43,724 nucleotides of DNA from Candidatus Eiseniibacteriota bacterium (GTDB lineage Bacteria; Eisenbacteria; RBG-16-71-46; JACRLI01). The notes beneath the pieces were generated by a model. It made no database searches and was not told the DNA's origin. It worked only from the letters and a program-made list of their open reading frames with translations. Where the stretch lies: positions 1-43,724 of the forward strand of contig JANXVU010000181.1 in NCBI GenBank assembly GCA_025351485.1. Reading direction: 5' to 3'. The translations under genes were made by a program, and so were the position numbers. Of the stretch, positions 6,964 to 41,398 are shown one piece after another. Numbering within the stretch: the stretch's first letter is position 1; each line of letters starts with the position of its first letter.

Positions 6964-9300
6964 ATGAAATCGCGGTGGTTCCTGTTTCTGGCGGTGGCAC
7001 TCGGCCTGTCCCTGCCGGCCATGTGCCGGGCCGGGATGGCGCCGACGTTTTTGCTGAAATGGGACAACAATGGAAAGCTCGGCGCGGTGATGGGCATCGC
7101 AGTGGACCGCAGTGGGAACGTTTATGTGGCCGATACGAAAAGCGACTACATTCATAAGTTCGATGGCATGGGCTCGCTGTTGATGGACTTGAAGTGCAGC
7201 CAGCCAGTGGGCGTCGCGGTCAGCTCATCCGGTCTCGTGTATGTGACCAGCCAGGGAACTCGCATGGTCCATCAGTTCGACAATGGCAAGGAAGTCAGGG
7301 CGTGGGGCAAGTTCGAAAGCCCAATGGGCGTCGCCGTGGATGGCGACGGATTTGTGTATGTCGCCGACAACAAGGCCCAAGTCCAGAAATTCACTGCCGA
7401 AGGCAAGTACATTTCCATGTTGAAGGTCTCCAATCCCACCGGAATCGCCGTCGACGCGATGGGCAATGTCTTCGTATCCAGCGGCAACTTCCGAATTGAA
7501 AAATTCGACGGCTTTGGGAATCCCCTCGGTGGTTGGGGTACCCTTGGCACCGATCCGGGCCAGCTCACGCTGCCCTCCGGGGTGGCCACCGACGCCGATG
7601 GAAACGTATACGTGGCCGAGCGCAAGTACTCGCGGATCCAGAAATTTTCGGGGTCCGGAGATTACCTGACCCAATGGGGTAGCAACGGAAGGAACGATGG
7701 GGAGTTTGCCGATCCATGGGGCGTGGCCGTCGGCTCCGACGGGAGCATCTTCGTCACGGACACGGGAAACCTGCGGGTTCAGAAGTTCGCAGTGCTGTGC
7801 GCCCTCACCGCGATTGGTTCGAATGTCCCCGTGGAGTTCAAGCCGGCCGGGATTTCGTTCACATTCGACCAGGTGGCCCAGGAAGGGACAACATGCTTGG
7901 GTATGCCCGCGAAGGCGCCCGCACCGCCGGGGGGGTATTTCGCAGGTATCGGCCCCCAGAACTACAGCGCGTCCACGACCGCGCTCTACACTGGATTCGT
8001 GCACGTTTGCATCAACTACAGCGACAAGTGGTTCAAGGAAGGCGACAAGGCGCTCGCGATATTCCAAATGGTGGACGGGGTTTGGGTAAACCAGACCACC
8101 GGCCACGATGAAGAGATGAACGTGATATGCGGAACCGTCATGCCGCTCGGCGTGTTTGCGCTGTTCACGGCGACACCGCCGTATGGCAGCGTGATCGGCC
8201 ACGTGCTCGCCGGTTGTCCGGCGCCTGAGACGCCGCTCCTTGGAGTTACCGTGGACGTCTATGAAGCCGGGCGTCCCGACCTGGTCGAGAGTGCCGTGAC
8301 GGATGAGGCGGGGTACTACCGGGTGAACATGCTCCCCGCGACCTTTGGGATCAAATACACCGTCCACGTGGTGACCCCCCTCGGGTACAGCACGCCCATC
8401 GAAGCGGTCAGCGTAGCATTCAAGGGCGGGCCGGTGCCGAAGGAACCTGCGCCGGCCCCGGTTGCCCCCCCGGTCCCCCAAAGTGACATAGCAACCGTCG
8501 ACTTTCCCATGGATTGCGTGATTCTCCCCTACGAGCCTCGATCGATCGGTTACTGGAAGCACCAGTTTGCGGTGGCCACGGGAGGCAAGGGCAAGGCCCA
8601 GGTGGATCCTGCGACCCTGTGCGGGTACCTGGACATGATCGTGAACCACTTCAACAGCAACGCAGTGAACTCCGTGATCGTCTACCAGCCGCCTTCCTGG
8701 GGCGGAAACGCTGAAAAACTGCAACTGGCGAGCGACCTCCTGAACCTGAAGGGCTCGGTCGAGATGATCGTCCGGGCGCGCCAGCAGCTCATTGCCTTGC
8801 TCCTCAATGTCGCCTCCGGCGGCATCAATCTGACGCGGGAAGTCAGCAAGGACGGCGCAACGCTGTCGCAGGCCATCACCTATTGCGACCAGCTGATCGA
8901 CGATCCCGCGGGCAACCACGAGAGGGCCAAGACCATCGCCGATGACATCAACAACGGGAAGAAGGTGGCGGCCGGAGTGATTCCGCTGGACACGCAGAAC
9001 ATTGCCTACAGACGTGGGGATGCCGCAGCGGACTTGATGGTGCGACCGAACCCGCTTCGCACATCGGCGCGAGTCGCCTACACCGTTCCGGCGGGCGGAC
9101 GTCCGGTCCAACTGGCTCTGTATGATGTCGCGGGGCGACGCGTGCAGAGCCTAATCAGCGGGCTGCAGCGGGCCGGGCGTCACGAGATGGACTGGACCGC
9201 CAACGTTCGCGGCGGCAACCGCACGGGTGCGGGAGTGTACTTCCTGCGTCTCACGGTCGGCGAGACGGTGAGCATCCGCCGGGTGGCAATCCTGCCGTAG
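6964..9300 (+). CDS. Secreted NHL-repeat protein with carboxypeptidase-regulatory-like and FlgD-like domains
   Basis: A 778-residue exported protein. A signal peptide (1-23, cleaving near 'AMCRA') is followed by six NHL beta-propeller repeats (about 38-278), each with a core like 'GVAVDGDGFVYVAD' and ending 'VQKF'. A spacer region (280-400) leads to a carboxypeptidase-regulatory-like fold (about 405-490, 'GSVIGHVLAG', 'AVTDEAGYYRV'). Next is a Pro-rich linker, then a helical region beginning 'SIGYWKHQFA' (about 526-690), a motif seen in other large secreted bacterial proteins but of unknown role. The protein ends in a FlgD-like Ig domain (about 690-778, 'VRPNPLRTSA', 'GVYFLRL'). GGAGGT five bases before ATG 6964 fixes the start. 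Likely a surface-attached binding protein; the ligand is unknown. Confidence 0.9.
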   Translation: MKSRWFLFLAVALGLSLPAMCRAGMAPTFLLKWDNNGKLGAVMGIAVDRSGNVYVADTKSDYIHKFDGMGSLLMDLKCSQPVGVAVSSSGLVYVTSQGTRMVHQFDNGKEVRAWGKFESPMGVAVDGDGFVYVADNKAQVQKFTAEGKYISMLKVSNPTGIAVDAMGNVFVSSGNFRIEKFDGFGNPLGGWGTLGTDPGQLTLPSGVATDADGNVYVAERKYSRIQKFSGSGDYLTQWGSNGRNDGEFADPWGVAVGSDGSIFVTDTGNLRVQKFAVLCALTAIGSNVPVEFKPAGISFTFDQVAQEGTTCLGMPAKAPAPPGGYFAGIGPQNYSASTTALYTGFVHVCINYSDKWFKEGDKALAIFQMVDGVWVNQTTGHDEEMNVICGTVMPLGVFALFTATPPYGSVIGHVLAGCPAPETPLLGVTVDVYEAGRPDLVESAVTDEAGYYRVNMLPATFGIKYTVHVVTPLGYSTPIEAVSVAFKGGPVPKEPAPAPVAPPVPQSDIATVDFPMDCVILPYEPRSIGYWKHQFAVATGGKGKAQVDPATLCGYLDMIVNHFNSNAVNSVIVYQPPSWGGNAEKLQLASDLLNLKGSVEMIVRARQQLIALLLNVASGGINLTREVSKDGATLSQAITYCDQLIDDPAGNHERAKTIADDINNGKKVAAGVIPLDTQNIAYRRGDAAADLMVRPNPLRTSARVAYTVPAGGRPVQLALYDVAGRRVQSLISGLQRAGRHEMDWTANVRGGNRTGAGVYFLRLTVGETVSIRRVAILP

Positions 9301-9525: not shown

Positions 9526-10341
9526 ATGCGTGTCCGTGAATCGGCATTCCATACCCTGGCAATTCTACTCTCGGTCGCGCTCGGGGTGATGACCTCGGCC
9601 CGTTCCGTCCACGCGCAGGCCTGCGCGCCGATTCCCGCGGGGCTGGTGAGCTGGTGGAAGCTGGAAGGGAATGCGCTGGACCTGCTCGGCTCGAACAACG
9701 GCGCTCTGGTCGGCGGCTCGTTCGAGGCTGCCGAAGTGGGCCAAGGCTACCGGCCCGCCGGCCTCGGCAGCCTGGTCCAGGTGCCTGACAACGCTTCGCT
9801 CAACCCGACCACGTTCACGGTGGACCTGTGGGCGAAGATCGACTACTTCCCGGTGTACAATGCCCCGCTCGTCTGGAAAGGCCAGTCCAACGGCGCGGAC
9901 AAGACCACTCCATTTGGGCTCGGGGTTTACGGGACCACTGAAAAGCCCGCACTCACGGGCTTCCCGTTCGCCGTGATCGGGAATGGCGTGGTCAGCCAGG
10001 AAGTGACGAGCCCCACGGCGATCGCGACGGGCGCGTTCTTCCACATGGCGCTGACGGCCGACGGGACCACCCTTTCGCTCTATGTCAACGGCCTGCTGGT
10101 CGACTCCGCCCCGCAACAATTGATCCCCGGCGCGAGTGCGTACGACCTGCAGCTCGGCGGCGTCGCCCAGCCCGGTGCGCTCAACATGCTCCCGGGAGTC
10201 ATCGACGAAGTCGAGATCCACAACCAGGCCGCCACCGCGGCCCAGATCCTGGCCATCTACCAGGCGGGCCCGGAAGGCAAGTGCCTGACCACGCCGCTCC
10301 GGGCGAAGACCTGGGGCCAGGTGCGGCGCAGCTACCGTTAG
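9526..10341 (+). CDS. Secreted LamG/concanavalin-A-like protein with C-terminal TWG..YR tag
   Basis: A 271-residue exported protein: signal peptide 1-31 ending 'SVHAQA', then a single LamG / concanavalin-A-like jelly-roll domain (about 37-250). Typical pieces are '[20 protein letters not shown]', 'FTVDLWAKI', '[19 protein letters not shown]' and '[18 protein letters not shown]'. Such domains bind glycans or proteins outside the cell. The last residues, '[11 protein letters not shown]' (261-271), closely match the end of another secreted protein in this window (encoded at 40745-41398) that shares no other similarity by eye. Unlike its neighbours it has no FlgD-like domain, so the short ending may substitute for it. 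A promoter-like element and a strong upstream terminator suggest its own transcript. Confidence 0.85.
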
Positions 10342-21147: not shown

Positions 21148-21771
21148 CTACCTCTTGCCCGCCCGCAGGATTCCAGCCACGCCCAGGAGGCCAACCCCCA
21201 TCAGCATCAGCGGGGTCGGTTCCGGGATGCTCGGGGGAAGGTTCTCGTTGAAGTGGATGTTGTCGATGAAGAAGTCCCACGTCGGTGTGTCTTTGGGCAA
21301 CGCAAAGATCTTGACCTGCGTGCCGGTCGCGGCAAAGCCGATGGTCTTCCGGCCACTGCTCAGGTTCGGAGCCAGCGTGAAATCAGCCAGATTCGCCGTG
21401 TTGTCCGACATCTCGTAGGTGACGTCCTGAGTGAGTCCGTTCAGAACATCCAGGAAGAAGTTGTGGATCGGGCTCTCAAACGTGATGGTAAGCGGGTTGG
21501 TCAGCGTCGGGTTACCGAAGTGGGCGGTGCCGTAGACCGACGTCTCGTCGGCCGGAAGGTTGGTTGTGTTTGTCAGGACGACCCCCCCGTCAAACGTTAC
21601 CTGGCCATCCACGGTATTGAATACCAGATGCTGCGCAGGCCCGGCGGCGGCAAACGTGCTCGGGCCCACGATCGACTCGAAGTCGACCACGGTGGCCGAA
21701 GCGTTCCCGGGCAAACCCAGGATGCCCACCAGGGCGGCGGGCAGGAACAGAAACGCGAGTTTCGTCCTCAT
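21148..21771 (-). CDS. PEP-CTERM sorting-domain protein, copy 1
   Basis: A 207-residue exported protein: signal peptide 'MRTKLAFLFLPAALVGILG', one beta-rich domain starting 'ATVVDFESIVGPS', and a C-terminal PEP-CTERM tail: 'PEPTPLMLMGVGLLGVAGIL' plus a basic end. This tail is recognised by exosortases (EpsH/XrtA family), which cleave and anchor the protein, usually in bacteria making extracellular polysaccharide. AAAAGGAG precedes ATG 21771. It is about three-quarters identical by eye to the next gene upstream, a clear tandem duplication. No exosortase is in the window. Function of the globular domain is unknown. Confidence 0.88.
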   Translation of the reverse strand: MRTKLAFLFLPAALVGILGLPGNASATVVDFESIVGPSTFAAAGPAQHLVFNTVDGQVTFDGGVVLTNTTNLPADETSVYGTAHFGNPTLTNPLTITFESPIHNFFLDVLNGLTQDVTYEMSDNTANLADFTLAPNLSSGRKTIGFAATGTQVKIFALPKDTPTWDFFIDNIHFNENLPPSIPEPTPLMLMGVGLLGVAGILRAGKR

Positions 21772-22143
21772 GATGTCTACTCCTTTTCTGCGTGGCGGTA
21801 GAAGATTGGGGGCGTGGCCGCCATGATGAATCCAAGTCCGGGAGAGAACATTCGGCAGCGCGGTTGGGTTTCTTGCGGAACCGCATCTGAAGCCGGCAGA
21901 TTCTTCCACTGGAGCTTGTGAAATCTAGCGCAATCCTATTCCTCTCCCGCATCGATGGTCAACACCCTGCACGCCGTTTCGTTTTGCCTCCTGAATAGGC
22001 AGTCGTGCCGCAGCGAAGGCCTTTCGGATGACACCAGCTACTTATGCTGCAATTACTTGGACGCCACCCGCGCCGGTTCGCGGGGTGGGCGACTGGCGCA
22101 AGGCGACCCCGCGGCTGTCCGGCGAGACGCCCGAACACAAAAA
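21772..22143. other. 372-bp intergenic region upstream of PEP-CTERM copy 1
   Basis: No gene is supported here. It contains the promoter-like element at 21933-21962 and borders the terminator of the second copy. It is richer in A+T than the coding sequence around it. Confidence 0.5.
21933..21962 (-). promoter_or_regulatory. Putative promoter of PEP-CTERM copy 1
   Basis: Minus strand TTGACC (21962-21957), 18 bases, TAGGAT (21938-21933): five of six and four of six matches. Transcription would start near 21926, giving a leader of about 155 bases. Confidence 0.45.
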
Positions 22144-22175
22144 AGGAAGGCAGCGCCCGTGGGCACTGCCTTCCT
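22144..22175 (-). terminator. Intrinsic terminator of PEP-CTERM copy 2
   Basis: A 10-bp stem (AGGAAGGCAG / CTGCCTTCCT) with an inner GCCC/GGGC pairing. On the minus strand it is followed directly by a TTTTTT tract, the classical rho-independent form, about 30 bases after the stop at 22204. Confidence 0.85.
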
Positions 22176-22203
22176 GATTCGACGAAACTATCTTAGACGG
22201 GGC

Positions 22204-22836
22204 TTACTTCCGGCCCGCCCGCACGATTCCGGCCACGCCCAGCAGGCCAAATCCCATCAGCACCAGCGGAGTCGGCTCCGGCGTGGTGGCAGGAAGGGCC
22301 TCGTTGAAGTGGATGTTGTCGATCAAGAAGTCCCAGGTCTGGACGTCCTTCGGCGTCGCGAAGATCTGCACCTGCGTGCCGCTCGCCGCAAAGCCGATGG
22401 TCTTCTGCCCGCTGCTCAGGTTCGGGGCCAGCGTGAAATCCGCCACGTTCGCCGCGTTGTCCGACATCTCATAGGTGACATTCGTGTTAAGCCCGTTCAA
22501 GACATCCAGGTAGAAGTTCGTGATCGGGTGCTCAAAAGTGATGGTGAGCGGATTGGTATAGCTCGGGTCAACCGCGTCCCCGACCCTGGCAGTGCCGTAG
22601 ACCGAGGTCTGATCGGCCGGCAGGGCAAAAGCGTTGGTCAGCACGACTCCCCCGTCCACTGTGACCTGCCCGTCCACCGTGTTGAACACCAGGTGTTGGG
22701 CCGGTCCAGCCAGGACGTAGAAGCTGGGACCGACGATTGACTCAAAGTCAACGACCGTGGCGGAAGCCGGGCGGGCCGTGCCAAGGAAGCTCGCCGCAGC
22801 GGCAAACAGCGAAAGCGCTAACAGTCTCTTCTTCAT
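22204..22836 (-). CDS. PEP-CTERM sorting-domain protein, copy 2
   Basis: A 210-residue exported protein with signal peptide 'MKKRLLALSLFAAAASFLG', the same 'ATVVDFESIVGPS' beta-rich domain as copy 1, and the PEP-CTERM tail 'PEPTPLVLMGFGLLGVAGIV' plus a basic end. Compared with copy 1 it has a small insertion after 'TSVYGTA'; most of the rest is identical or conservative. GAAGGAGTAA precedes ATG 22836. It has its own strong promoter and terminator, so the copies are separate transcription units and may be expressed under different conditions. Role unknown; sorting would need an exosortase encoded elsewhere. Confidence 0.88.
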   Translation of the reverse strand: MKKRLLALSLFAAAASFLGTARPASATVVDFESIVGPSFYVLAGPAQHLVFNTVDGQVTVDGGVVLTNAFALPADQTSVYGTARVGDAVDPSYTNPLTITFEHPITNFYLDVLNGLNTNVTYEMSDNAANVADFTLAPNLSSGQKTIGFAASGTQVQIFATPKDVQTWDFLIDNIHFNEALPATTPEPTPLVLMGFGLLGVAGIVRAGRK

Positions 22837-23186
22837 GGGTCTTACTCCTTCGTCGGGGATATCGGCCGGAAAGGCCAACGGTTCATGGTTCATTCTGGTC
22901 GAGGAAGCCGAAAGCCCTGGCAGCTATCTACCAACCAAATAGTCAGAATCGGGTTTAATATTATCCAGACTGCGCGGAGCTGTCAAGAAGTAATCGGGTT
23001 CGTCGGAGGATCGAGTTCGGGTAGGATCCACGCGACAATGTTCGGCTTCAGCGCGAGCTTCGCGCCATAACGTCCTATCCTACCAAGGCTTACGTGGGCA
23101 TTCGTCCACTCCGGCCCGGATCGGGCGGACCAGGAATGGTCCCGGCTTGCCTCCGCGGCCCCGTAGTACATGCCTGCCGCGAGAGA
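22837..23186. other. 350-bp intergenic region between PEP-CTERM copy 2 and yaeQ
   Basis: It contains the promoter of PEP-CTERM copy 2 (22958-22986) and a small palindrome, GGACCA-GGAA-TGGTCC (23127-23142). No coding sequence is supported. The palindrome could be a weak terminator for yaeQ or an operator; there is no T-run. Confidence 0.45.
22958..22986 (-). promoter_or_regulatory. Promoter of PEP-CTERM copy 2
   Basis: Minus strand TTGACA (22986-22981, perfect -35), 17 bases, TAATAT (22963-22958; an overlapping GATAAT is also possible), in a markedly A+T-rich patch. The predicted start is about 115 bases upstream of ATG 22836. Confidence 0.6.
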
Positions 23187-23802: not shown

Positions 23803-26800
23803 TTACTGCACCCGCACAAATCGGCCGGTACGGGTTCCCCACGGGGTCTGGAGCCTCACGAAATAGAGCCCCGCGCCGACCCTGGCGCCGGCGGAAGTGC
23901 GGCCGTCCCAGTTGAAGGCGTGCGAGCCGGCACCCATCGGGGAATCCGTGCGCATGACCACCCGCCCATGCACATCCACCACTTCCAGGCGGACGCTACC
24001 TTCGCGCGGCAATGAGAAGCCGAGCCGCGTGATCCTGGAGCTGGGGTTGGGCTGGGCCGGCGAAAGGCTCAGCACGCGGGGCCCGCCGCCCACGCCCTCG
24101 ATCAGCTGGGTGAAGGTCGCGGATATGGTGTGGTCCGCGGTGACGTTGGGAAAGTTGTAGGTGGCGACCGGCCCCACGCTCACCAAATCAACGAGCACAT
24201 CCTGCACCACGTAGGTGAGCGCCGGAGTGATGGTGAAGCCCTGACCGGCCCCGGAGGCGACCACCACCGCGCCGTTCGGCGAGATGGTGCCGTTGGCGCC
24301 CGCTGTGGCGGTGATGGTGAAAGTCGGGACCTTGAACTCGCCGATCGCGAAATCACCGAATCCGGTCACCCCGGTAGCCTGCGTCGTGGTCGCGGTGCGC
24401 GTGCCGATGGTGGCGCTGTTCCAGCCCGCGCTGTAGCGGCGCACCAGGAACACCGCCGGGTTGGCGCCTCCGTCCACGTCGGTCGCGGGGTAGCTGAACG
24501 TGGGATCGAAGCTGGTGAACGAGGGCGATCCGGTCGGGGTCAGCGTCCAGTAGCGGTTCACCGACTTGGCCGGATCCAGGTCGGAACCGGCCAGGTTCGG
24601 GTGGTCGCCCGTCGCGCACGACGCGGTGAGCTCGTACGACGAGACGGCGCCGCTGATGGCCACCGTGACCGGCGCATAGCGGAGCGCATCACCCACATCG
24701 AACTTCACGGTGGGCGAGCCGGCAGCGACCAGGCGGCGCAGGGTTCCCGCCACCCAGCCGGTCGATTGGGATGCGCCCGCGACGACACCGGTCGAGCTCG
24801 TGACCAGCGAATTGCCTCCGGTGGTGATCGTGCCACGCACGAAGGAAACCGTGCCGTTCAAGGTGACGTTGCTCACGAGCGAAACGCCGCTGGCGTTATT
24901 CACCGACAGCACCGAGGTGGCGCTGGTGTTCAGGGTGCCCTGGATCCGCAGCGCCTGGGGTGAGCTGCCGCCCAGCGTCAAGGTGACCGCTCCCGCCGGG
25001 ATCAGGCTCAGCGTGGCGCCGGGTTTGACTTTGATGTTGCCCCGGACGTTCCCCCCCGCACTCAGGCTGCTCAGGTTCAACGTGCCTTGCGAGACGATCA
25101 GGCTGTCCATGGTGTAGGCATTGGAGCCGCTGGGCAGGATCGTGGAAGCGCTGTTCAGTTCGAAGTCGGCGTACAGCCTGCCCGACATGGACGGGGTAAG
25201 CGCCGCGTCGAGACGGAAGCGGCTCCCGGGCTGGAAGCTCACCACGGCGTTGGGAGAGGTCGCCCCAAACGGATTGGCTCCCGCGCCCTGCGCCAGCATC
25301 GAACCGGACTGGAACACGACCGAATTGAGCGCTCCGGGAGCGGCTCCGGTTCCGAAGATGTTTCCGCTGAAACCCGTGCCCAACGTCAGCGTGGCGCCGT
25401 CCTGGAAGGCAAGTGCTCCCGCGCCGGACGCGAAAAGCCGGTGCGCGGCGCCCGTGGCGGTGATCGCGCCCCGGACCGAACCCGTGGCGCTCCCGCTGAG
25501 CGCGAGGGAAAGAGCGCTCGATCCATTGAGCAGCAGCGAGGACCCCGCCGCCAGGTCCAGTCCCAGGCCGGAGGTCCCGGCGAGAGTCAGTGTAGCCGCC
25601 GCGCCGGGCTGAAGCGCCACCGACGTGTTCCCCGAGATCTGCAGCTGCCCGATGGTCTGCGCTGGAACTCCCGTCGAAGTCACCGAGCCGCCGCCGTTGA
25701 AGATCAGGACGTCGTCCGTGGCCGGCGTGGTGCGGGTCGGCGTCCAGTTGGTCGAGGTGCCCCAGGCGGCCGTCCCGGCCTGGTTCCAGGTGTAGACGTG
25801 CTGGGTAAACGTGGCGGTAATGTTCCTGTCGCCCGTGACCAGCACGCTGAGCGGATTGATGCTGCCCGTGGCATCGCCGCTCCAGCCGGCGAAGCTCCAC
25901 CCGCCGGATGGCGTGGCGGTGAGGGTCATCGTAGAACCGCCGGGGTAGGTGGGCTGGTCGGGACTCTTCGCAACCGTTCCGCTTCCCACCAACGTCACGT
26001 TCACCGTGAAATCGGAGGGCGCGAACGAGGCGGCGATGGTCTGGTCCGAGTGCACCGGGGCGAAACTGTAGCTGGTGACCGCGCCCACCGAGCCGCCGTT
26101 CACAAGCACATCCGCCACGTGGAAGCCGGCGTTCGGCGTGATGATGTAGGCCGGCGTCGTCCCGTCGCCAAAGCCCACCGGGCCGTTCGGGCTGATACTG
26201 CCGTTCGCGCCGGCCGAGGAGGTCACGGTCCAGCCTGCCCGCGTGAAGTTGGCGTGGCTCGAATCGGAGCCGATGTTTCCGGCGGCATCATGGGCGGTCA
26301 CCCGGACCCGCACCGAGGTGGAAGGCAGGCCCGCGATGCTCCAGGCGTAGGAACCGGAGTTGGCGATCCCGTTGGCGATCGCGCCCGCGAACGTGGCCCC
26401 TCCGTCGTTCGAGTAGGCCAGGTCCACCGTGGTGACACCCACGTCATCAGTGGCCGTCCAGGTGATGTTCTGGCTGGAGCCGATGGGCCAGCTCTCCCCG
26501 CCCACCGGCGAGGTGACCGTGACGACGGGAGCCTGGGTGTCCGAGGTGTTGAGCGCGAAGGAAGCCACGATGGTCTGGTCGGCGTGGACCGGCGCAAATG
26601 TGTAGTTGGTCACGGCGCCTGCCGAGCTCCCATTCACCAGCACATCCGCGACGTGATACCCGAAGGCCGGCGAGATCACGTACGCGGGCGTCGCTCCATC
26701 ACCCACCCCCACCACTCCATTCGGGGCGATGCTGCCGTTCGCGAGGGCGGACGAGGTGACGGTCCAGCCGGTGATCGAGAAATTGGCGTGGCTCGAGTCG

Positions 26801-27978
26801 GAGCCCACATTTCCGGCGGCGTCGTGGGCGATGACCCGCACCCGCGCCGTGGAGGAAGGCAGCGAGGAAATGGTCCAGGCGAAAGTCCCGGTGTTGGCCA
26901 CGCCGGTGGCGATGGCGTTCGGGAAGGTCGCGCCGCCGTCGGTCGAGAAGGCGATGTCCACGGACGTCACGGCGATATTGTCCGTGGCCGTCCAGGTGAC
27001 GTTGTGCGCGGCGCCGATGGCCCAGCTCTCCGCCCCCACCGGGGAAGTGACGGTCACGACCGGGGGCTGCAGGTCCGGCGCGAACGCGCCCCGCCGGGTG
27101 GCCCAGATGGTCCCGTTGAGGAACACCAGGCTGTCGGAACTCTCCGCCCAGCCGTTGAACAAGCTGCCGCCATTGCCCGTTCCATCGTCCGCGGGCGAGC
27201 TATCGGTCACGTAGACCACGCGGCCGTTGCCGTAGGTGGAGTGGGCGACCATGACGTTGACCGTGGATCCCTGGGCCTGGCCGTTGATCCAGATGTCGCC
27301 GGTCACCGTGGGGTTGGCAGCGGTGTTGAGCTGCATCACGGTTCCGGCGTGGAACGCGATCCCCGGGGCCAGGCCCGCGGCGCCGGTGATGACGGAGTCG
27401 GCCGGCGAGGGGTTCACGTTGGTGCTGGTCTGGGTGATGCTGTTGTTGGGGTCCCCCGTGACGTTGAAGTGCGCGCCAAACAGCTGCTGCGAATCCAGCA
27501 GGTTCAGGACGTGGGGGGAATCGAACCCGTCGTTGTTGCGGTCGGATGCGTTGTGGTCCGAGATCGCGAACAGCCCGCCGCCGTCCCGCACGAAATTGAA
27601 GATCGCCGTGGACTCCGCGGAGGAGAAGCGGATGTTGGGCTCGTTGGTGATGAACACGTCGTAGTTCGAGAGGTCATAGGGGTTGCTGAGATTCTGGTAG
27701 GTGATGCCGAAAGCGGAAGTCAGGGTGGCCACGGTGTAGCCGCGCTTGACCAACTGGACGCCCCAGGCGGAGTTGGCGCCGGTCCAGTAGTTTTCCGGAG
27801 TGGCCCAGGTGATGCCCGATTGGGCCGGGGAAGGTACCGGCTGGTTGACGTCGATGACCCAGTCGGCGTTTCCGGCGGTCTGGGCCTTGGTGTTGTCAAA
27901 GAGCGCCCGCTTCTGGGCGAATGCAGGCGACGCAAACAGCACGCTGGCGAACAGCAGGGCGACGAAGTGTCGAAGCAT
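23803..27978 (-). CDS. Large secreted modular protein (Ig-like, InlB-type repeats, beta-helix-like region, FlgD-like end)
   Basis: A 1391-residue exported protein with signal peptide 1-21 ('FASPAFAQ'). Residues about 25-295 resemble a class I glutamine-amidotransferase-like (ThuA/DUF4350-style) fold ('YDVFITNEPN', 'FVRDGGGLFAISDHN'). Two near-identical modules follow (304-475 and 482-652). Each has an Ig-like 'TSPVG.ESW' domain and an InlB-type repeat ('GWTVTSS', 'NGSI.PNG', 'HVADVLVNG', 'DQTI.ASF'). A third, divergent InlB-like repeat (655-726) leads to a long Ser/Gly/Thr-rich beta-helix-like region (730-1130), another InlB-like unit (about 1240-1305) and a FlgD-like C-terminus ('PNPSSRI', 'GAGLYFVRL'). 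Likely a surface adhesin or fibrous protein. I see no catalytic residues in the amidotransferase-like part. Confidence 0.9.
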   Translation of the reverse strand: MLRHFVALLFASVLFASPAFAQKRALFDNTKAQTAGNADWVIDVNQPVPSPAQSGITWATPENYWTGANSAWGVQLVKRGYTVATLTSAFGITYQNLSNPYDLSNYDVFITNEPNIRFSSAESTAIFNFVRDGGGLFAISDHNASDRNNDGFDSPHVLNLLDSQQLFGAHFNVTGDPNNSITQTSTNVNPSPADSVITGAAGLAPGIAFHAGTVMQLNTAANPTVTGDIWINGQAQGSTVNVMVAHSTYGNGRVVYVTDSSPADDGTGNGGSLFNGWAESSDSLVFLNGTIWATRRGAFAPDLQPPVVTVTSPVGAESWAIGAAHNVTWTATDNIAVTSVDIAFSTDGGATFPNAIATGVANTGTFAWTISSLPSSTARVRVIAHDAAGNVGSDSSHANFSITGWTVTSSALANGSIAPNGVVGVGDGATPAYVISPAFGYHVADVLVNGSSAGAVTNYTFAPVHADQTIVASFALNTSDTQAPVVTVTSPVGGESWPIGSSQNITWTATDDVGVTTVDLAYSNDGGATFAGAIANGIANSGSYAWSIAGLPSTSVRVRVTAHDAAGNIGSDSSHANFTRAGWTVTSSAGANGSISPNGPVGFGDGTTPAYIITPNAGFHVADVLVNGGSVGAVTSYSFAPVHSDQTIAASFAPSDFTVNVTLVGSGTVAKSPDQPTYPGGSTMTLTATPSGGWSFAGWSGDATGSINPLSVLVTGDRNITATFTQHVYTWNQAGTAAWGTSTNWTPTRTTPATDDVLIFNGGGSVTSTGVPAQTIGQLQISGNTSVALQPGAAATLTLAGTSGLGLDLAAGSSLLLNGSSALSLALSGSATGSVRGAITATGAAHRLFASGAGALAFQDGATLTLGTGFSGNIFGTGAAPGALNSVVFQSGSMLAQGAGANPFGATSPNAVVSFQPGSRFRLDAALTPSMSGRLYADFELNSASTILPSGSNAYTMDSLIVSQGTLNLSSLSAGGNVRGNIKVKPGATLSLIPAGAVTLTLGGSSPQALRIQGTLNTSATSVLSVNNASGVSLVSNVTLNGTVSFVRGTITTGGNSLVTSSTGVVAGASQSTGWVAGTLRRLVAAGSPTVKFDVGDALRYAPVTVAISGAVSSYELTASCATGDHPNLAGSDLDPAKSVNRYWTLTPTGSPSFTSFDPTFSYPATDVDGGANPAVFLVRRYSAGWNSATIGTRTATTTQATGVTGFGDFAIGEFKVPTFTITATAGANGTISPNGAVVVASGAGQGFTITPALTYVVQDVLVDLVSVGPVATYNFPNVTADHTISATFTQLIEGVGGGPRVLSLSPAQPNPSSRITRLGFSLPREGSVRLEVVDVHGRVVMRTDSPMGAGSHAFNWDGRTSAGARVGAGLYFVRLQTPWGTRTGRFVRVQ
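26023..27069 (-). repeat. Tandem intragenic duplication of an Ig-like plus InlB-type module
   Basis: Two consecutive units of about 515 bp encode residues 304-475 and 482-652 of the large secreted protein. Shared blocks include 'PPVVTVTSPVG'/'APVVTVTSPVG', 'RVRVIAHDAAGN'/'RVRVTAHDAAGN', 'GSDSSHANF' in both and 'YHVADVLVNG'/'FHVADVLVNG'. The high identity suggests a recent or gene-converted duplication. Confidence 0.85.
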
Positions 27979-40744: not shown

Positions 40745-41398
40745 CTACCGGTAGGTGTTCCGGACTCGCCCCCAGGTGCTCGGGCGGGCCGGCGTGGCCG
40801 CAGAGCAGAACGTGGCACCGGACAGACGGATCGAGTAGTTCGCCGGCCCCTGCAGCACTCCCGGACCCCAACTGGTGATCGCGCTCGCGGCTCCGGCACC
40901 GTCGGGAGCGCGTTCGCTGGTCTGGCCCGCGACCCAAATCGCCCCGCCCGCGGAATTGGCCTGCGCCCCGTTCGGCGCCACCGCGATGTAGTAGAGCCCG
41001 GTGCCCGGAACCAGCGCATTGCTGATCTGCTTGCACCCGGCCGAACAAATCTGCGCCAGGGCTACTCCCTTTCCAGAGGCGTCGAACAGATACAGATCGG
41101 GCTGCATGATGAACAGGCAGTTGAGGCAGGCTCCGAACGCGTTGCGGTCCGTGATCAGGATGCAGTACATGTCCACGTCTTCGTTCGGAAAGGTGGCGCC
41201 GTTGATGGTGGTGAGTGCGCCGATTCCCGCCGTGGTCTGGGCGACCCCGGGCAGCGGCCCGGCATCGCCGACCTCGTTCCAGACCTGCGCCCGAACCGGG
41301 GAGGCCGCGAACAGGGCCACCGCGACTGCGAAAAGGAGTGGCGCGGCCCAGGCTTCAATTCCGACAAACCTCTGCTTCGGCGTGAACTGAGAATTCAT
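40745..41398 (-). CDS. Secreted PPC-like protein with C-terminal TWG..YR tag
   Basis: A 217-residue exported protein with an N-terminal signal ('APLLFAVAVALFAASPVRAQ', about 19-38) after a basic start. The body has 'EDVDMYCILITDRNAF' and 'QPDLYLFDASGKGVALAQI', the style of bacterial pre-peptidase C-terminal (PPC) beta-sandwich domains, with several Cys ('CLNCLF', 'CSAGCKQ'). It ends 'STWGRVRNTYR' (207-217), which matches '[11 protein letters not shown]' at the end of the LamG-like protein (9526-10341). AGAGGA precedes ATG 41398; the open frame extends to 41446 but loses the ribosome-binding site. A TATAAT element lies about 95 bases upstream. Function unknown. Confidence 0.78.
   Translation of the reverse strand: MNSQFTPKQRFVGIEAWAAPLLFAVAVALFAASPVRAQVWNEVGDAGPLPGVAQTTAGIGALTTINGATFPNEDVDMYCILITDRNAFGACLNCLFIMQPDLYLFDASGKGVALAQICSAGCKQISNALVPGTGLYYIAVAPNGAQANSAGGAIWVAGQTSERAPDGAGAASAITSWGPGVLQGPANYSIRLSGATFCSAATPARPSTWGRVRNTYR

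Follow-up and report, generated by a model that had tools for sequence, protein, structure and literature searches.

PEP-CTERM, MYXO-CTERM, GlyGly-CTERM, and LPXTG tails are tripartite, comprising a motif, a transmembrane helix, and a basic tail, and are processed by membrane proteases or sortases. The type A domains of the type IX secretion system (T9SS) are folded Ig-like beta-sandwiches of about 70-100 aa with motifs A-E, and are cleaved by PorU. Their last residues, a conserved lysine included, are essential, and extensions are tolerated (PMC11285876). The shortest T9SS signals reported measure 40-55 aa and have motifs B, D, and E (PMC11969387). One and the same T9SS reads several unrelated C-terminal signals by means of different shuttles: PorV for type A and PorP/SprF-like proteins for type B (PMC12618676, PMC10202324).

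The window, i.e., the whole stretch of 43,724 nucleotides of Candidatus Eiseniibacteriota DNA that was analysed, encodes two secreted proteins with a common tail (Table 1). Both tail endings are as the original prediction gave them, that of the 217-aa protein being PARPSTWGRVRNTYR followed by the stop codon. Their bodies had been described as dissimilar, and the only significant BLASTP similarity between the two proteins indeed lies in the 16 C-terminal residues (10/16 identities, E=7e-5), the remaining pieces being noise. Concerning their domains, the LamG-like label of the 271-aa protein agrees with the Laminin_G_3 domain found by Pfam (PF13385, E=1.8e-21), while the PPC-like label of the 217-aa protein is unsupported, since Pfam gives no match. 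An AlphaFold2 model of a window protein, computed without an alignment, had a pLDDT of 32. Other secreted proteins of the window had been said to end in FlgD-like or PEP-CTERM regions, and both classes are seen by eye; the first tagged gene is preceded, at a distance of 225 bp, by the FlgD-like gene on the plus strand, which belongs to a different C-terminal class. The two PEP-CTERM genes are adjacent (21148-22893), with C-terminal regions that are alike (DFFIDNIHFNEN / DFLIDNIHFNEA), and are probably a tandem duplication.

Table 1. Secreted proteins of the window and their C-terminal regions
Feature	Position	Strand	Basis
Secreted protein, T9SS type A-like (FlgD-like) C-terminal domain, end ..GVYFLRLTVGETVSIRRVAILP	6964..9300	+	by eye
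Tagged secreted protein, 271 aa: signal peptide, Laminin_G_3 (LamG/ConA-like), C-terminal tag	9526..10341	+	
C-terminal tag and linker of the LamG protein, 16 residues then stop	10291..10341	+	
PEP-CTERM protein, end ..PEPTPLMLMGVGLLGVAGILRAGKR; third C-terminal class in the window	21148..21909	-	by eye
Second PEP-CTERM protein	22204..22893	-	by eye
Secreted protein, T9SS type A-like C-terminal domain, end ..GLYFVRLQTPWGTRTGRFVRVQ	23803..27978	-	by eye
Tagged secreted protein, 217 aa: signal peptide, body without Pfam match	40745..41398	-	
C-terminal tag and linker TPARPSTWGRVRNTYR-stop of the 217-aa protein	40745..40795	-	

The motif was searched in the 3.44-Mb genome of origin with a degenerate DNA pattern for WG-x-h-[K/R]-x-x-[Y/F]-[R/K]-stop, and in 47 genomes of the phylum as the coded motif [ST]WG-x-[ILV]-[KR]-x-x-YR-stop. 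Stop-anchored matches numbered 21 in the genome of origin, versus 1 for the reversed pattern, and 425 in the phylum, distributed over 43 of the 47 genomes, versus 0 for the reversed pattern. Without a stop codon, the motif was found at only 37 places in these 47 genomes; the matches of this kind that were inspected lie nearly all 1-6 residues, and at most 29, before a stop in secreted proteins, as in TWGGIKALYRE-stop and TWGGLRKTYRKAAPVNKAQRK-stop. Because of this imbalance, and of the nearness of the remaining matches to a stop, the motif is a feature of the C-terminus.

Signal peptides were called with a hydrophobicity and charge heuristic on the 167 tagged ORFs that have an upstream stop in view. 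A signal-peptide-like N-terminus was recognised in 153 of them, and among the remainder several frames are broken or lack a start. In 382 kb sampled from the genome of origin, all 11 tagged gene calls were signal-peptide-like, versus 84 of 296 other gene calls (p=1.6e-6). Tagged proteins are mostly small (median 235 aa) and reach up to about 35 per genome. After trimming both ends, BLASTP distributed 161 tagged bodies into 81 unrelated families, with domains such as LamG, NHL, CHRD, plastocyanin-like, beta-helix, ice-binding, FG-GAP, and lamin-tail. Six NCBIfam choice-of-anchor domains (L, W, E, C, V, and J), whose name comes from their pairing with alternative sorting signals, are also among them. 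In short, this is a genuine C-terminal tag of Sec-exported proteins, modular and defined at the protein level.

Several local arrangements of tagged genes were observed. Tandem arrays occur at L062 (G019:C94, 6702-14627), where nine consecutive tagged genes belong to one expanded family, at L063 (G020:C15), and at L180 (G318:C161), with three genes, and about six tagged frames with different bodies lie within 7.5 kb at G383:C114 (L173/L201). In two distant lineages, the tag is borne by pairs of small secreted proteins of the plastocyanin-like type (L023/L112, G000:C21:41.6-42.2 kb, and L139, G304), and the plastocyanin-like pair of the genome of origin has basic extensions of 11-12 residues after YR. 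Two tagged frames at L003/L084 (G000:C42:8.2-9.9 kb), 49 and 100 aa long and lacking a usable start, are found immediately downstream of homologous untagged secreted proteins, and look like frameshifted or decaying copies.

The consensus of 187 distinct tagged ORFs is [TVS]-[PA]-[VTA]-x-x-x-[TS]-W-G-x-[ILV]-K-[AS]-[LM]-Y-R-COOH, in which W and G are invariant by requirement of the search and not by measured conservation. In these ORFs, the basic position inside the tag is K (89%) or R (11%), the terminal Y and R are each present in 96%, T or S precedes W at -1 in 98%, and P occupies -6 in 59%. Upstream of about -10 the information content is at background level and no position is conserved. 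The motif should better be widened to [TS]-[PA]-[VTA]-x-x-x-[TS]-W-G-x-[ILV]-[KR]-x-x-Y-R. The linker before the tag is short and usually includes [TV]P[VTA], and the tag itself stands at the stop or a few residues before it, most proteins ending at the motif or within about 12 residues of it, and basic residues after it are tolerated (KGNRVTNAKPRR). Lineage variants end in YK, YQ, or YN, and relaxed forms such as TTWGQLRNLYSK and NWSAIRKLYR are also found. The tag lacks any membrane or hydrophobic segment and does not follow the sortase-type plan of motif, transmembrane helix, and basic cluster. No Pfam or NCBIfam model covering it was matched. TIGR04183, which describes motifs A-E, had no match among 82 tagged representatives or six isolated tails, and T9SS-domain or PEP-CTERM sorting-domain models matched none of the same 82. 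An amphipathic-helix mechanism was discarded, the computed moment being unexceptional for the composition of the tag.

Two readings would deprive the tail of any sorting role. The genomes are GC-rich and the motif is short, so the tag might be a chance or compositional artefact of GC-rich coding sequence. However, the reversed control gave zero matches in the 47-genome scan and in the AT-tolerant 385-genome scan, and one in the other 385-genome scan. Furthermore, an AT-richer tag, TCCTGGGGTAGAATTAAATCCATCTACAGATAA, is found on a signal-peptide protein of another lineage (G187), and codon choice at every tag position, like the use of all three stop codons, varies freely. This reading is already refuted and its probability is practically nil. 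Since tag and stop codons vary freely, selection acts on the peptide; a function at the DNA level, such as a terminator or a repeat, is rejected on the ground of the same variation. The other reading, which the original prediction had entertained as the last strand of a small shared domain, makes the tail the final element, or the remnant, of such a domain. A short helix predicted by AlphaFold2 at residues 239-245 of one family would speak for it, with a confidence so low that it was given no weight. On the contrary, conservation ends at about -10 and is not domain-sized, the bodies fall into 81 unrelated families, Pfam and NCBIfam give no match, and in the AlphaFold2 prediction for a ten-member tagged family the tail is detached from a beta-rich body, with pLDDT below 50. 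A shared domain is accordingly disfavoured and very improbable. As for the expectations raised by the two window proteins, an enrichment at C-termini over internal positions, a match beyond chance, a prevalence of signal peptides, and upstream domains from more than one family are all seen in these data.

The strongest evidence for a sorting role of the tag comes from anchor swaps, which were looked for by comparing tagged proteins with untagged homologues among the fetched neighbours. In the genome of origin, a tagged protein of locus L086 is 33% identical over 178 aa (E=1e-15) to a neighbour with a T9SS type A-like end. A tagged protein of G115 has T9SS-domain homologues in G000 (E=4e-37) and G020 (E=6e-30), and in G016 two tagged proteins have a PEP-CTERM homologue in their own locus (E=1e-8). 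The tag is thus interchangeable with T9SS C-terminal domains and with PEP-CTERM on homologous bodies. At another locus (L097, 16879-18084), a PEP-CTERM gene and a gene that ends in the tag variant NTNWSAIRKLYR have a few bases in common, which may place two sorting classes in one operon.

The distribution of the tag was followed in 385 genomes, namely the 47 of the phylum and, for each of many other lineages, one to three representatives. The pattern was found in 56 of them, and in 61 when AT-rich codons were tolerated. Outside the phylum, the two patterns combined give 18 of 338 sampled genomes, from about 13 lineages. Protein ends were inspected in 14 of these 18 (G150, G183, G286, and G363 were left out) and belong to signal-peptide proteins with the full motif, with the exceptions of G085, which is doubtful, and G148, a single frame with no usable start in view. 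SprA (PF14349), the T9SS translocon, was matched in 18/18 tag-positive outside genomes, two of these matches (G085 and G363) being weak and below the family cut-off, versus 90/338 overall (hypergeometric, 1.2e-11; about 3e-8 with 13 families as independent units). In each of the 24 tag-positive genomes tested, TIGR04183 is matched 43 times or more, and C25 peptidases are matched 3 times or more. Some tag-positive genomes of the phylum itself, which are incomplete assemblies, have no SprA match. Because about 72 SprA-positive outside genomes were sampled without the tag, SprA is not sufficient for its presence. Shared ancestry can explain part of the association; the T9SS dependence of the tag is what we infer from a pattern confounded by ancestry. 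Regarding the surroundings of the tags, no recurrent gene family and no machinery emerged from 770 gene calls in the regions retrieved. Neither a receptor nor a shuttle or protease for the tag was identified among its neighbours. The co-occurring processing enzyme that had been predicted was not found beside tags, the T9SS being the one co-occurring system that was tested. In several genomes, peptidases of the C25 (gingipain/PorU-like) type were matched at no more than about 10 kb from tags (G019:C94:15792, G016:C315:8273, G145:C15:18329, and G017:C85:5428), G145 having one tag; this nearness may be due to chance.

The tag is probably an address label for export or cell-surface attachment, and the anchoring or export signal originally proposed is supported by C-terminal enrichment, by signal peptides, and by the diversity of the bodies. 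On balance, the evidence leans towards a modular C-terminal sorting or anchoring tag, for which the export machinery in the outer membrane of T9SS-bearing bacteria is the most likely reader. The tagged protein would reach the periplasm by means of its signal peptide. A dedicated receptor, located there or at the outer membrane, would bind the tag and deliver the protein to the far side of the outer membrane or onto it. The likeliest reader would be a component of the T9SS route or an addition to it, for example a PorV/PorP-like shuttle. Such a reader is favoured because, outside the phylum, the tag was found only in SprA-encoding genomes; the fact that known T9SS signals are folded domains, whose motifs B, D, and E are absent from the tag, counts against it. 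A further step, proposed more tentatively, is that a linear nonapeptide (WGxhKxxYR), served by a shuttle or receptor of its own in uncultured lineages with a T9SS, and with neither a folded domain nor a transmembrane tail, may constitute a new class of outer-membrane export or anchoring signal.

The main rival is a dedicated anchoring or processing system that would act on the soluble tag independently of the T9SS, in analogy with exosortase/PEP-CTERM or myxosortase/MYXO-CTERM, its enzyme occurring in the same lineages by coincidence. A short and near-invariant linear peptide would suit an enzyme or a receptor as substrate. Moreover, genomes with the tag also possess full sets of T9SS domains and PEP-CTERM, which suggests a third pathway, and many SprA-positive genomes are devoid of the tag. 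Nonetheless, known sortase-type tails have the transmembrane segment that the tag lacks, no candidate enzyme was found near tags, and the full confinement of the tag to SprA-positive genomes among those sampled outside the phylum would have to be fortuitous. This system is considered rather unlikely. Still less probable is non-covalent retention, in which the basic-aromatic tail would hold the protein at the surface by binding an envelope polymer (lipopolysaccharide or S-layer glycan) or the outer membrane directly. K, Y, and R are near-invariant and evenly spaced from tag to tag (W and G being required by the search), which points to specific protein recognition over bulk charge, and amphipathicity is ordinary for the composition, even if the tag is short and aromatic, has a net positive charge, and accepts additional basic residues, as a retention peptide might.

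No description of the tag was found in the literature, in a search limited to open-licence PMC papers. The motif provides a one-line rule by which a surface or secreted destination is predicted for hundreds of unannotated proteins of uncultured phyla, and in the bacteria that carry it three or more C-terminal sorting codes are in use at once. If the T9SS reads the tag, the minimal T9SS signal could be a short linear peptide and not a folded domain; if it does not, a receptor or processing enzyme is still to be discovered.

Among the described systems, the T9SS type A domains (TIGR04183/PF18962) resemble the tag in being C-terminal on Sec-exported proteins with diverse bodies, in occurring in the same genomes and on homologous bodies, and in the importance of the last residues, a conserved Lys included, with tolerance of short extensions (PMC11285876). 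They differ from it in size and build, as the tag comprises about 10-16 aa around a W-G core, has no upstream motifs, and matches neither type A model. The short CTDs of Prevotella intermedia (PMC11969387) are likewise reduced C-terminal signals of secreted proteins, but they retain 40-55 aa, with three beta-strands and motifs B, D, and E, and CTD HMMs find them but not the tag. Type B signals (TIGR04131), which need over 100-200 aa and are often encoded beside a PorP/SprF shuttle, and type C CTDs, which need about 100 aa, are both unlike it. PEP-CTERM, MYXO-CTERM, GlyGly-CTERM, and LPXTG tails share with the tag a short near-invariant motif on many unrelated secreted proteins per genome, and PEP-CTERM occurs on bodies homologous to tagged ones; the tag, in contrast to all of them, has no transmembrane helix. 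In kind, the tag belongs to the C-terminal sorting signals, but to neither the T9SS domains nor the sortase-type tails.
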